From Marinobacterium aestuarii (GTDB lineage: Bacteria; Pseudomonadota; Gammaproteobacteria; Pseudomonadales; Balneatricaceae): a stretch of DNA of 64,000 nt. The position numbers and the translations under genes were made by a program. Every line of letters starts with the position of its first letter. Within the stretch, counting starts at the first letter, position 1. Below the pieces are notes generated by a model. That model was given only the letters and a program-made list of their open reading frames with translations, was not told where the DNA came from and did not search any database. This document shows positions 43,601-47,002 of this stretch, piece after piece. The stretch lies in contig NZ_CP015839.1 of assembly GCF_001651805.1 (NCBI RefSeq), positions 682,001 to 746,000 of the forward strand, in the 5' to 3' direction.

Positions 43601-43618
43601 CTGCAGTATGAGTGCCAA
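43601..43618 (-). promoter_or_regulatory. Sigma-54 promoter of the BON gene
   Basis: On the minus strand the sequence reads TTGGCACTCATACTGCAG. TGGCAC is a perfect -24 element and CTGCA a good -12 element, with the GG and GC pairs 12 bases apart as required. Transcription should start near 43591, leaving a 130-base leader before the ATG at 43460. Confidence 0.8.
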
Positions 43619-43668
43619 CTATTAATTATGTTTAATAACAATAAGTTGTGTTGTTTTCGTGGATGGTG

Positions 43669-43718
43669 ATATGCCCCGGTGGGGGAAATGCCCCAGCGCC
43701 AGTAGTGACATATCCCCC
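43669..43718. promoter_or_regulatory. Candidate enhancer sites upstream of the BON promoter
   Basis: GGGGGAAATGCCCC (43681-43694) differs from the palindrome GGGGCATATGCCCC at 46811 by two bases. A half site ATATGCCCC (43669-43677) and a near half site CATATCCCCC (43709-43718) flank it. They lie about 80-125 bases upstream of the predicted start, the usual range for a sigma-54 activator. Confidence 0.6.
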
Positions 43719-43746
43719 TTATCCGGTGCGAGTTGTCGCGGCCCGC

Positions 43747-45159
43747 TCAGGCTTCGTCGGACAGGATGATGCCGTACTTCTGGATGCGGTAACGCAGGGT
43801 GTCGCGGGTGGTATGCAAAAGTCGGGCGGCGGCGGTGACATTGTGCTGATTGCGCTCCAGTACCGCGCTGATAATGAAACTGTCCATGTCATCCAGCCCC
43901 ATGCTGCCGTCGAGCGGCACCTGGAGATAGCGGGGGTCTGCTGATGGCGCTGCGCTAGCGGCTGGTTCCGCCTGGTCCGACGTCGAGGGTTGCAGTTGCA
44001 GCCATTGCTGCGGCAGTTCAGTGTCGTCGGCAAACAGCACGCAGCGCTCGATCACATTGCGCAGCTCGCGCACGTTGCCGGGCCAGCGGTGGGCTTTGAG
44101 GCGGGTCCAGACACTGCTGCTGATGTGGCGCACATTCTTGCCCGCCTTGGCGTTGAATTCGTCGACCAGCAAGGGCACCAGGGCGTCCAGATCCTCAACG
44201 CGTTCGCGCAGGGGCGGCATCTGCAGCTCAAACACACAGAGGCGGTGATAGAGGTCTTCGCGGAAATCGCCGCTTTCAATGCAGCCCTGCAGGTTGCGGT
44301 TGGTGGCGGCGATCAACTGCACGTCGACGCTGATCTCGCGGTCGCCGCCGACCCGGCGAAAGCATTGTTCTTCAATAACTTTCAACAGCTTGGCTTGCAG
44401 ATCGGCGGGCATTTCACCGATTTCATCGAGAAACAGGGTGCCACCGTCGGCCTGCTCGAAGAGACCCCGTCGACGGCCCTTGGCGCCGGTAAAGGCGCCC
44501 GCTTCATGGCCGAAGAGTTCGGATTCCAGCAGGTCCTTGGGCAGCGCTGAGCAGTTGACCTCCACCATGGGGGCATCCTGGCGGGTGCCACTGTGATGCA
44601 GTATGCGCGCCGCCACGCCCTTGCCAGTACCGGTTTCACCCGTGAGTATCAGGGTGGAGAAGGGGGCCTGGGCCAGCTTTGTCAACATAGTGCGCAGCTG
44701 TGAGGCGGCCTCGCTCTGGCCCACGAAGCTGTCCGGCGTGAAGCGGCGCCGGCCGGCGGAAAACTGATCGCGCAGGCGCCGTTGTGCCGTCGCGCTGCGC
44801 GTCGCACTGCTGATGACCAGGTCCAGCCGGTCGAAATCGACAGGCTTTTCCAGGTAGTCATAGGCGCCCAGACGCAGCGCCCGCACGGAGTCGGCCACGG
44901 TGCCGTAGCCGGTGAGAAAGATCCATTCGCTGCCGCTCGTCTGACCGCTAGCCTCCTCGAGCAGGTCCAGCGCATTGCCATCCGGCAGGTTCATGTCGGA
45001 CAGGATTACGGTGGGAGTGAGGCCATTGTCGAACAGCTCGTGGCGGGCGCTGTCCAGGGTCTCGGTCAGCATGACGCGCCAGCCTTCGCGTTGAAAGTGG
45101 CGTTTAAGTTCGATCCCGAGCAGGGTCTCGTCTTCAATAATCAGCAGGGATTTAGTCAT
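43747..45159 (-). CDS. Sigma-54-dependent response regulator
   Basis: A 470-residue NtrC-type regulator. The receiver domain (about 1-120) has its phosphate-accepting Asp55 in LSDMNLPDG. The AAA+ domain (about 145-380) has Walker A GETGTGKG, the sigma-54-contacting loop GAFTGA, and Walker B GGTLFLDEIGEMP. The C-terminal Fis-type helix-turn-helix is NVTAAARLLHTTRDTLRYRI. All catalytic and sigma-54-contacting parts are intact. It overlaps the sensor kinase by eight bases. Sigma-54 promoters lie on both sides of the operon and in front of it. Confidence 0.95.
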   Translation of the reverse strand: MTKSLLIIEDETLLGIELKRHFQREGWRVMLTETLDSARHELFDNGLTPTVILSDMNLPDGNALDLLEEASGQTSGSEWIFLTGYGTVADSVRALRLGAYDYLEKPVDFDRLDLVISSATRSATAQRRLRDQFSAGRRRFTPDSFVGQSEAASQLRTMLTKLAQAPFSTLILTGETGTGKGVAARILHHSGTRQDAPMVEVNCSALPKDLLESELFGHEAGAFTGAKGRRRGLFEQADGGTLFLDEIGEMPADLQAKLLKVIEEQCFRRVGGDREISVDVQLIAATNRNLQGCIESGDFREDLYHRLCVFELQMPPLRERVEDLDALVPLLVDEFNAKAGKNVRHISSSVWTRLKAHRWPGNVRELRNVIERCVLFADDTELPQQWLQLQPSTSDQAEPAASAAPSADPRYLQVPLDGSMGLDDMDSFIISAVLERNQHNVTAAARLLHTTRDTLRYRIQKYGIILSDEA

Positions 45160-46600
45160 CGGCCTCTTTGTACGGCAGCCTCAGGGTTACACAGGCGCCG
45201 CCCTCGTTGCGGTTGCTTAAGCGTAGTTCGCCGCCCAGATCAGCGGTAAAACGGCGCACCATGACCAGCCCCAGGCCGGTGCCTCCGGCGCGCCAGGAGC
45301 AGAAGGGCTGGATACCGGTTTCCAGCATGGCCTGGGAAAAGCCCGGCCCGCTGTCCTTGACCGTGATCTCGAGCATCTGCTCCTGGCGCCTTGCCTGCAG
45401 CAGAATCTGGCCATGGTTGCTGCCCAGTGTTTGCCCGGCATTGAGCAGCAGGTTCAGCAGCATCTGTCGCAGCTGGGAGTGGGGCAGCAGGCAGCGCAGT
45501 TTTTCCGTGACCTCTGAGTCAATGCTGACATTTTCGTGCAGCTGGTAGGCGGCCAGGGTGATCAGGCTCTCGCACTCTTCGCGGACATCCAGCATGACCG
45601 GAACCTCGGGCCGCTGTCGGGCCTGGTCCAGCAACTGATTAAGTTGCCGGGTGGCGCGCTTAACCTCGTCATTGATCATCTCGACCCGTTCAACCAGGTC
45701 GGCTCCCTGGACATCCTGGCGCAGGTTTTCCAGCGCCATCTGGACACTGGTAAGGGGGTTGCGCAGTTCATGGGCGACCCCCGCCGCGACTTCTCCGATG
45801 GCACCCAGACGTTCGGCCTGGGAGAGTCTGCGCTGCTGCTGCAACAGCATGTAGGTGGCACTGCGCACCTCCCGGGTGAGGCTGTCCTGGCGCAGCTTTT
45901 GGGCCTGTTCAAGCTTCTTCAGGCGCTGCACCATGAGGTTATATTTCTGGATCATCGGGAACAGCATTGGATCTGTCTCTTCCACCGGCAGTTCGCTGAA
46001 GTCGTGTCGGGCCAGCAAGGTCATCTGGCTGCTGAGGTTATGCAGGGGCCTGAGGACGCGCTGGCGTACCCGGGCCCACAGCAGGGCAGAGATCAGCAGC
46101 AGGCCAATAGCCAGTCCAAAGGCGATGAAGAGTTCGCGCCGGGCCCCGCTCTGGAAAGCACTGAGCAGTATTTCGTGGGCCAGCAGCTCCTGGTTCAGGG
46201 CGCCGCGCAGCGCGGACGAGGCCGTATCCAGGGGAACCGGGCTGTAACCGTCGAACTGCACCAGCTGTTTTAGCGCATGTTCAATGCTGGCGGGGGTCGT
46301 ATCCATGCGGTAGGCGTCGGATGCAGCCAGTTCGTGCAGTTGCTGCAAGAGTGCATCAAAACTGCCGGGGTCCAGGTATCCGTCTTCGGCTTCCAGCAGG
46401 TTGACCCGCTGGGTGCGGACGTCCCCCGCTGCCTGCTCGATCGCCACCACGTAGGTGAGATGGCCTTTCAGGGGCTGGATGCGCTCGATATTGCGTGACG
46501 CGCCGTAGGTCAGCAGTCCGAAACTGGCGATGAGCAACAGCAGGGCTGTTGCCGACAGCGGCCAGACAGAACCTGTCAGTAAAGATGGCAGTCCTCGCAT
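45152..46600 (-). CDS. Sensor histidine kinase
   Basis: A 482-residue inner-membrane kinase. A first membrane helix (about 12-32), a periplasmic part of about 130 residues and a second helix (about 170-190) are followed by HAMP, a coiled coil, the dimerisation domain with the phospho-accepting His in GVAHELRNPL, and the ATPase domain with N-box LLNLLLNAGQT and G1 box VKDSGPGF. The periplasmic part has no family I know. ATG 46600 is preferred (AGGA upstream); a GTG at 46654 adds 18 Pro/Gln-rich residues. It forms a two-component pair with the overlapping sigma-54 regulator. Confidence 0.92.
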   Translation of the reverse strand: MRGLPSLLTGSVWPLSATALLLLIASFGLLTYGASRNIERIQPLKGHLTYVVAIEQAAGDVRTQRVNLLEAEDGYLDPGSFDALLQQLHELAASDAYRMDTTPASIEHALKQLVQFDGYSPVPLDTASSALRGALNQELLAHEILLSAFQSGARRELFIAFGLAIGLLLISALLWARVRQRVLRPLHNLSSQMTLLARHDFSELPVEETDPMLFPMIQKYNLMVQRLKKLEQAQKLRQDSLTREVRSATYMLLQQQRRLSQAERLGAIGEVAAGVAHELRNPLTSVQMALENLRQDVQGADLVERVEMINDEVKRATRQLNQLLDQARQRPEVPVMLDVREECESLITLAAYQLHENVSIDSEVTEKLRCLLPHSQLRQMLLNLLLNAGQTLGSNHGQILLQARRQEQMLEITVKDSGPGFSQAMLETGIQPFCSWRAGGTGLGLVMVRRFTADLGGELRLSNRNEGGACVTLRLPYKEADD

Positions 46601-46729
46601 GTGAACATAGTCCTGTGGTTGCAGGTTACCCTGCGGCGGTGGCTGTTGTGGCACAACATCTGCGTCCTGCTAACCAGTGTAGCCATATGGGTCTATAAGG
46701 CGGTTATGCCGTGCTTGACTTGAAACAGA

Positions 46730-46746
46730 TGCACCCTTGGTGCCAG
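46730..46746 (-). promoter_or_regulatory. Sigma-54 promoter of the kinase-regulator operon
   Basis: The minus strand reads CTGGCACCAAGGGTGCA. It has a full TGGCAC -24 element, a GTGCA -12 element, and the GG and GC pairs 12 bases apart. Transcription should start near 46719, before either possible start of the kinase gene, which points to positive autoregulation. Confidence 0.72.
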
Positions 46747-46810
46747 ATCCATAACTAATTAATATCAATATGAAAAAGTTGCACAGAAGGGCGAACGCTA
46801 AGACAGACAA

Positions 46811-46824
46811 GGGGCATATGCCCC
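46811..46824. promoter_or_regulatory. Perfect palindrome, candidate activator binding site
   Basis: GGGGCATATGCCCC is its own reverse complement. It lies about 90-105 bases upstream of the kinase-operon start and about 130-145 upstream of the DUF1328 start, so one site could serve both sigma-54 promoters. Confidence 0.65.
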
Positions 46825-46927
46825 GGGCGTCGGGATAAGACCCCGCAAAGCGGGGCCTATCACCCGCTGCCTCAGCATTGCAGCGGGCACTGGAAAAATT
46901 ATCTTTGAAAGTGAACAGCATAGCGAA

Positions 46928-46944
46928 CTGGCATCGATTGTGCC
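46928..46944 (+). promoter_or_regulatory. Sigma-54 promoter of the DUF1328 gene
   Basis: CTGGCATCGATTGTGCC has TGGCA at -24 and TGC at -12 with the correct 12-base offset between GG and GC. Transcription would start near 46955, with the ATG at 47003. It is slightly weaker than the other two sites. Confidence 0.65.
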
Positions 46945-47002
46945 TGATGGATATATGCACGGTTTTGGCATCTATCCCGTCAATAAACATAAGGAGATTG
47001 CT

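Follow-up and report, generated by a model that had tools for sequence, protein, structure and literature searches.

Does an NtrC-type regulator govern its own operon and the genes on either side of it through sigma-54 promoters? The question was raised by a 64-kb stretch (hereafter the window) of the single-contig, 5.19 Mb genome of Marinobacterium aestuarii (NZ_CP015839.1, positions 682,001 to 746,000), in which the genes for such a regulator and a membrane histidine kinase lie between a BON-domain gene and a DUF1328 gene. The original prediction, made from these letters, was that sensor, activator, binding sites and targets form a compact, self-regulated regulon. The analysis described here indicates that the locus very probably encodes a self-amplifying, RpoN-dependent two-component stress switch. 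The step from regulator to DNA site is well supported by co-occurrence of the two across species; we infer the signal, the phosphotransfer and the output.

Predicted promoters and palindromic sites of the locus

The components of the proposed switch are as follows (positions are those of the window; no strand is given for the palindromic sites).

43747..45159, minus strand: NtrC-type response regulator, 470 amino acids (Pfam Response_reg, Sigma54_activat, HTH_8)
45152..46600, minus strand: membrane histidine kinase, 482 amino acids (Pfam HisKA and HATPase_c)
43603..43617, minus strand: predicted sigma-54 promoter of the BON operon, TGGCACTCATACTGC; TGGCATTCATACTGC in M. profundum
46731..46745, minus strand: predicted sigma-54 promoter of the kinase-regulator operon (autoregulation), TGGCACCAAGGGTGC; TGGCACTGAGGGTGC in M. 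profundum
46929..46943, plus strand: predicted sigma-54 promoter of DUF1328, TGGCATCGATTGTGC; identical in M. profundum
46811..46824: predicted activator site 1, the perfect palindrome GGGGCATATGCCCC; one-mismatch copy in M. profundum
46852..46865: predicted activator site 2, a weaker site 41 bp away from site 1; also present, with some drift, in M. profundum
43664..43677: predicted activator site before BON, proximal
43681..43694: predicted activator site before BON, middle, a two-mismatch copy of the palindrome
43705..43718: predicted activator site before BON, distal

The regulator carries a receiver, an AAA+ sigma-54 domain and a Fis-type helix-turn-helix, all three above the Pfam cut-off, and GAFTGA, the loop that contacts sigma-54, can be read in its translation. 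Its gene overlaps that of the kinase by 8 bp, and the genome contains one rpoN match (Sigma54_DBD). The DNA elements named in the original prediction were all recovered: three -24/-12 promoters with exact GG-N10-GC spacing, a palindrome between the divergent kinase and DUF1328 promoters, and a two-mismatch copy of it before the BON gene, with a neighbouring site on each side.

The exact pattern TGGCAYN6TGC was matched four times in the window against 2.92 expected, and 34 of 100 shuffles reach four matches, so that the number of promoters carries no significance; each of the four matches nevertheless falls within the regulator locus. The palindrome GGGGCATATGCCCC has a single exact match in the genome and a single one-mismatch copy; the one-mismatch palindrome at genome position 3088761 (L002) had no sigma-54 site in range. 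At up to three mismatches it was found nine times in the window against 6.56 expected, which is no enrichment.

It could be argued that promoters and palindrome are chance matches retained by descent in two close species: the number of promoters in the window is within chance, and in Marinobacterium profundum (G003, PAMC 27536) the regulator is 97% identical and the intergenic sequence 85% and 88% identical anyway. However, the block of three BON sites is identical in M. profundum amid more variable stretches, the distal side of the block and the interval between block and promoter both differing, and promoters unrelated to these also have the site, in other families and, less clearly, in another class. 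Descent from chance matches is, on this evidence, scarcely credible. The conservation on which the original prediction was to be judged was found in M. profundum in full: the gene order is the same, and all three promoters, the palindrome (at one mismatch) and the three BON sites are kept. The fourth exact -24/-12 match (46649..46663, plus strand), directed toward DUF1328 from the 5' end of the kinase gene, has no counterpart at up to one mismatch in the M. profundum locus; it is therefore probably a chance match and was rejected as a promoter. A full-length kinase ortholog was present in two of seven Marinobacterium genomes, M. aestuarii included, and a second locus from the kinase scan of named genomes, a partial 26% match, was set aside.

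The site accompanies the regulator in other genomes

Searches at a threshold of E 1e-110 placed the regulator in 20 other genomes among 369 of the class, in three others among 390 of the order, and in two others among 398 of the phylum (G1009, which is outside the class, and G074, which had already been found). G003 and G010 were found via the kinase, and G797 and G798 via one of two further order-level searches, which covered two and five genomes. Orthologs in other families and one other class are approximately 45-65% identical.

Half-site matches lay upstream of 11 of the 36 exact sigma-54 sites in the ortholog loci, compared with 233 of 5000 random positions, an enrichment that pointed to the palindromic consensus GGKGNATATNCMCC. 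When up to two mismatches were allowed, this consensus was present 25-154 bp upstream of 15 of 36 exact sigma-54 sites in 26 non-Marinobacterium loci and downstream of only one (Fisher 5e-5). Around sigma-54 sites carrying one mismatch, the same search gave 13 upstream and three downstream matches at 173 sites. In the genomes of 26 regulator-bearing bacteria, 10 of 44 exact consensus sites lay 25-140 bp from an exact sigma-54 site, whereas none of 36 did so in 26 genomes considered to be without the regulator (Fisher 0.0015). When the five positives from the motif-defining loci were excluded, 5 of 39 remained, against 1.2% of random positions (binomial 9e-5); as these five hold two same-genus pairs, they amount to three independent cases. 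Three genomes added after the motif had been fixed gave four of seven sigma-54 sites with an upstream match and none of seven with a downstream match (Fisher 0.035). By tally, at least one pair of site and exact sigma-54 promoter occurs in 16 of 29 regulator-bearing genomes in the stretches examined, and at several promoters of other genomes the sites themselves are paired, 17-24 bp apart. These observations support the proposal that the palindrome, in a relaxed form, is the binding site of this regulator.

In the M. aestuarii genome, GGKGNATATNCMCC at up to two mismatches was found 21 times in the window against 7.73 expected (0 of 100 shuffles reach 21), a count to be read in the light of the consensus having been drawn partly from the window's own sites; five of the 21 fall in the two intergenic regions. 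There are 62 sites at up to one mismatch in the whole genome, and the flanks of 50 of them were examined. An exact sigma-54 site was in range only at the window's own sites, which fits the compact regulon originally proposed, and the regulon in this genome seems confined to the locus. The sigma-54 sites at L120, L123 and L156 carry one mismatch, and these loci were not taken as targets.

An alternative explanation is that the promoters are genuine and the palindromes belong to another regulator, whether a repressor or a different enhancer-binding protein encoded in M. aestuarii. The genome does contain 15 paralogous regulator matches at E 1e-60, and sites near -60 to -120 could suit any activator. 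Yet the site tracks this regulator family in divergent genomes, it was never paired with an exact sigma-54 site in the 26 genomes judged to lack the regulator, and it was absent from the four exact sigma-54 sites of the paralog loci in M. aestuarii. In a tree of 42 regulators, in which the bootstrap had not fully settled and from which L090 was left out as a contig-end fragment without a qualifying open reading frame (ORF), the 27 ortholog rows formed one clade (100/100) apart from the 15 paralogs. The recognition helix (TTRDTLRYRIQKY in M. aestuarii) has an RYR core in 27 of 27 orthologs and in none of the 15 paralogs, whose helices differ. Ownership of the sites by another regulator is therefore improbable.

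Several observations weigh against assigning the site to this regulator, against the switch as a whole, or against individual counts. Thirteen of the 29 regulator-bearing genomes show no pair of an exact sigma-54 site and an activator site (up to two mismatches) in the stretches examined; they include G010, of the same family, in which the contig breaks off shortly past the regulator gene. The two Marinobacterium loci gave no upstream and two downstream matches at 28 one-mismatch sigma-54 sites. Some of the loci counted had already served to refine the site. Nor are all hits independent: the promoter in L084 is duplicated, and there are pairs from the same genus. At the 36 exact sigma-54 sites, the asymmetry was nine upstream against one downstream at up to one mismatch and 22 against three at up to three mismatches. 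The locus control sets were small (three, one and four exact sigma-54 sites), and in one of them one of three had an upstream site at two mismatches. Absence of the regulator from the 26 control genomes is direct for G009, G062, G096, G103 and G109; for the other 21, mostly relatives and unmatched to the regulator-bearing set, it was deduced from a missing kinase. The sites in G1009 are two-mismatch matches, and at L093:1501-1537 two exact tandem sites 23 bp apart occur with no sigma-54 site in range at the thresholds applied. No adjacent kinase was seen at the distant orthologs L086, L087, L089, L091 and L092, some of which also have altered receiver motifs. Finally, the leader of the BON gene is nearly as conserved in M. 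profundum as the site block, and the role of the candidate targets as stress genes is read from family names.

Candidate targets in relatives

Gene orientation was checked downstream of each pair of site and sigma-54 promoter. ORF starts were mechanical and lay upstream of the promoter in L072, L076, L078, L079 and L084, where genes were assigned by the position of the Pfam domain. A BON protein follows the pair in G444 (L126, by Pfam) and G349 (L128, by resemblance to the L126 protein). Other pairs precede genes for a DegP-type protease (L071, L072), YfdX (L072, L090, twice in L228, and L078 by a match barely above the cut-off), Hsp20 (L078), encapsulin-ferritin (L079) and transaldolase (L071), and a gene for a 98-amino-acid protein without a Pfam family (L129 in G178, with a similar pair in the same-genus G301). 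Together, BON, DegP, Hsp20, YfdX, encapsulin-ferritin and cytochrome bd as candidate targets give the system the look of an RpoN-dependent envelope and respiratory stress response.

The kinase gene itself follows a pair in L072 and L090, two genomes of one other genus, in both cases via a one-mismatch sigma-54 site. Together with the kinase promoter in the window, these cases are consistent with the predicted self-regulation.

The cytochrome bd genes suggest a second interpretation, namely that the system is primarily a respiratory switch, responding to terminal oxidase or redox state, that was rewired to BON and DUF1328 in Marinobacterium. Site-bearing promoters stand before cydA in L076, L083, L084 (two copies), L229 and L230, and before cydB in L071. 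Five of these six genomes belong to one taxonomic family, so that they represent two lineages. Elsewhere, however, the genes behind the site encode chaperone, protease, YfdX and BON proteins, and no oxidase was detected among the nine window proteins scanned by Pfam. A primarily respiratory role is thus rather unlikely, and a switch responding to envelope or respiratory-membrane disturbance remains the preferred reading.

Universal stress protein (Usp) genes were considered as targets at two loci and rejected. The pair at L094:1392-1514 points away from a divergent Usp gene and has no ORF of at least 90 amino acids in front of it, and the exact sigma-54 site before the Usp gene at L077 has no activator site.

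Two further observations concern the distant orthologs. The genomes of L087 and L089 still have a site and sigma-54 promoter before a BON-type gene (L126 and L128). At L092:7017-7822, a DUF1328-like stretch next to another regulator ortholog follows an OmpA-like gene, which has an exact sigma-54 site in divergent orientation to the regulator; the activator site there is only a three-mismatch match.

Kinase sensor and neighbouring genes

The original prediction recognised no family in the periplasmic domain of the kinase, and this held across the kinases compared: at E 0.01, no Pfam sensor family covered the periplasmic stretch in any of 18 kinases, and HAMP was detected in two of them. In the alignment of these 18, which leaves out the L076 and L090 kinases, only E138 is invariant within the presumed periplasmic stretch. 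Judged by this alignment, the sensor is variable and fast-evolving. In a profile search the sensor-HAMP region weakly resembled NarQ (E 9e-5), which could reflect helix composition, and a NarQ-like sensor was not adopted. An AlphaFold2 model of the sensor from two sequences had a mean predicted local distance difference test score of 44 and was set aside. The kinase was judged more likely to start at ATG 46600 than at GTG 46654, because MRGL is read at the former in M. aestuarii and M. profundum alike.

The genes downstream of the predicted promoters are the following.

42618..43460, minus strand: triple-BON protein, OsmY-like; its gene opens a probable operon (PF04972, three stretches)
39002..42535, minus strand: rest of the probable BON operon; same gene order in M. 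profundum
47003..47167, plus strand: DUF1328 small protein, 54 amino acids (PF07043), 100% identical in M. profundum

The best NCBIfam match of the triple-BON protein is OsmY, under the cut-off. Behind its gene lie genes for a DUF883 protein and a 139-amino-acid protein, a small ORF, and genes for an AI-2E-family transporter and a PLD-domain protein; their spacing suggests that BON through PLD probably form one operon. The 131-nt BON leader (43461-43591, minus strand), almost unchanged in M. profundum as noted above, folds better than its shuffles, of which 2 of 200 do as well (z -2.89), and contains the inverted repeat GTCACAG...CTGTGAC; it is a possible leader element. The DUF1328 gene is divergent to the kinase gene, and beside it (47266-50005) are a shikimate dehydrogenase-like gene, identified by Pfam, and two ORFs that by eye resemble subunits of a tripartite ATP-independent periplasmic (TRAP) transporter.

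Proposed mechanism and comparison with known systems

The mechanism that best accommodates these features begins at the membrane, where the periplasmic sensor of the kinase would detect an envelope or respiratory-membrane disturbance. The kinase would then phosphorylate the NtrC-type regulator, as is expected of these families. The regulator would assemble on paired GGKGNATATNCMCC sites, mostly 50-115 bp upstream of the promoter, and drive sigma-54 polymerase at the kinase-regulator, DUF1328 and BON-DUF883-AI-2E-PLD promoters. Activation of its own operon would constitute positive feedback and, since two sites lie between both divergent promoters, transcription of kinase-regulator and DUF1328 should rise together.

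The closest architectural parallel is ZraSR-ZraP of Salmonella and Escherichia coli, in which, according to the available text of PMC4987338, divergent sigma-54 promoters serve an autoregulated sensor-regulator operon and a small envelope-stress gene. The present locus likewise has an NtrC-type pair and divergent sigma-54 promoters at 46731 (minus) and 46929 (plus), with sites at 46811 and 46852 between them. Unlike ZraSR-ZraP, it has an extra BON operon, and DUF1328 takes the place of ZraP. The ZraR binding site is listed as not known in the available text of the same paper. Judged by the curated equivalog cut-offs, the pair is not ZraSR: the regulator scored 270.5 of 760 bits for ZraR and the kinase 109.3 of 479 bits for ZraS. 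Among the 25 families listed of 79 for the regulator and the 25 of 77 for the kinase, no cut-off was reached for NtrBC, AtoSC, GlrKR or other named pairs; the best named-pair match listed for the regulator was AtoC (358.6 of 714 bits). In Myxococcus xanthus, the NtrC-type two-component system HsfAB controls the gene of a stress protease; compared by description only, it differs in its bacteria and its targets.

Psp is a sigma-54 response to envelope stress (PMC4987338, PMC3162934, available text), and its activator PspF lacks a regulatory domain, control being exerted by PspA (PMC4987338, likewise). Unlike PspF, the regulator described here has a receiver and an adjacent kinase. The envelope theme suggested here agrees with the available text of PMC3162934, in which sigma-54 regulons generally serve the cell envelope. 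A search of that text found no DUF1328, no cytochrome bd and no BON protein ('bon' matched only 'bonds').

Implications

The locus very probably represents a two-component stress system of the NtrC type for which an enhancer can be defined; it looks functional, and the system is broader than one locus. Among openly licensed papers, none was found on this regulator family, on such a regulon, or on sigma-54 control of BON, DUF1328 or YfdX genes. It is an evenly balanced possibility that the family constitutes a hitherto undescribed stress response under sigma-54, present in at least two classes of Proteobacteria, in which one enhancer is conserved and the effectors (BON, DUF1328, DegP, Hsp20, YfdX, encapsulin-ferritin and cytochrome bd) are exchangeable, and that it is a two-component counterpart of Psp and Cpx linking envelope proteostasis to the terminal oxidase. 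For BON, DUF1328 and YfdX proteins, the control of which is poorly understood, the proposed system provides a testable regulator, DNA site and target list, and brings them under the same sigma-54 control as cytochrome bd, DegP and Hsp20. The site would also allow the regulon to be predicted from sequence in genomes that carry the regulator.

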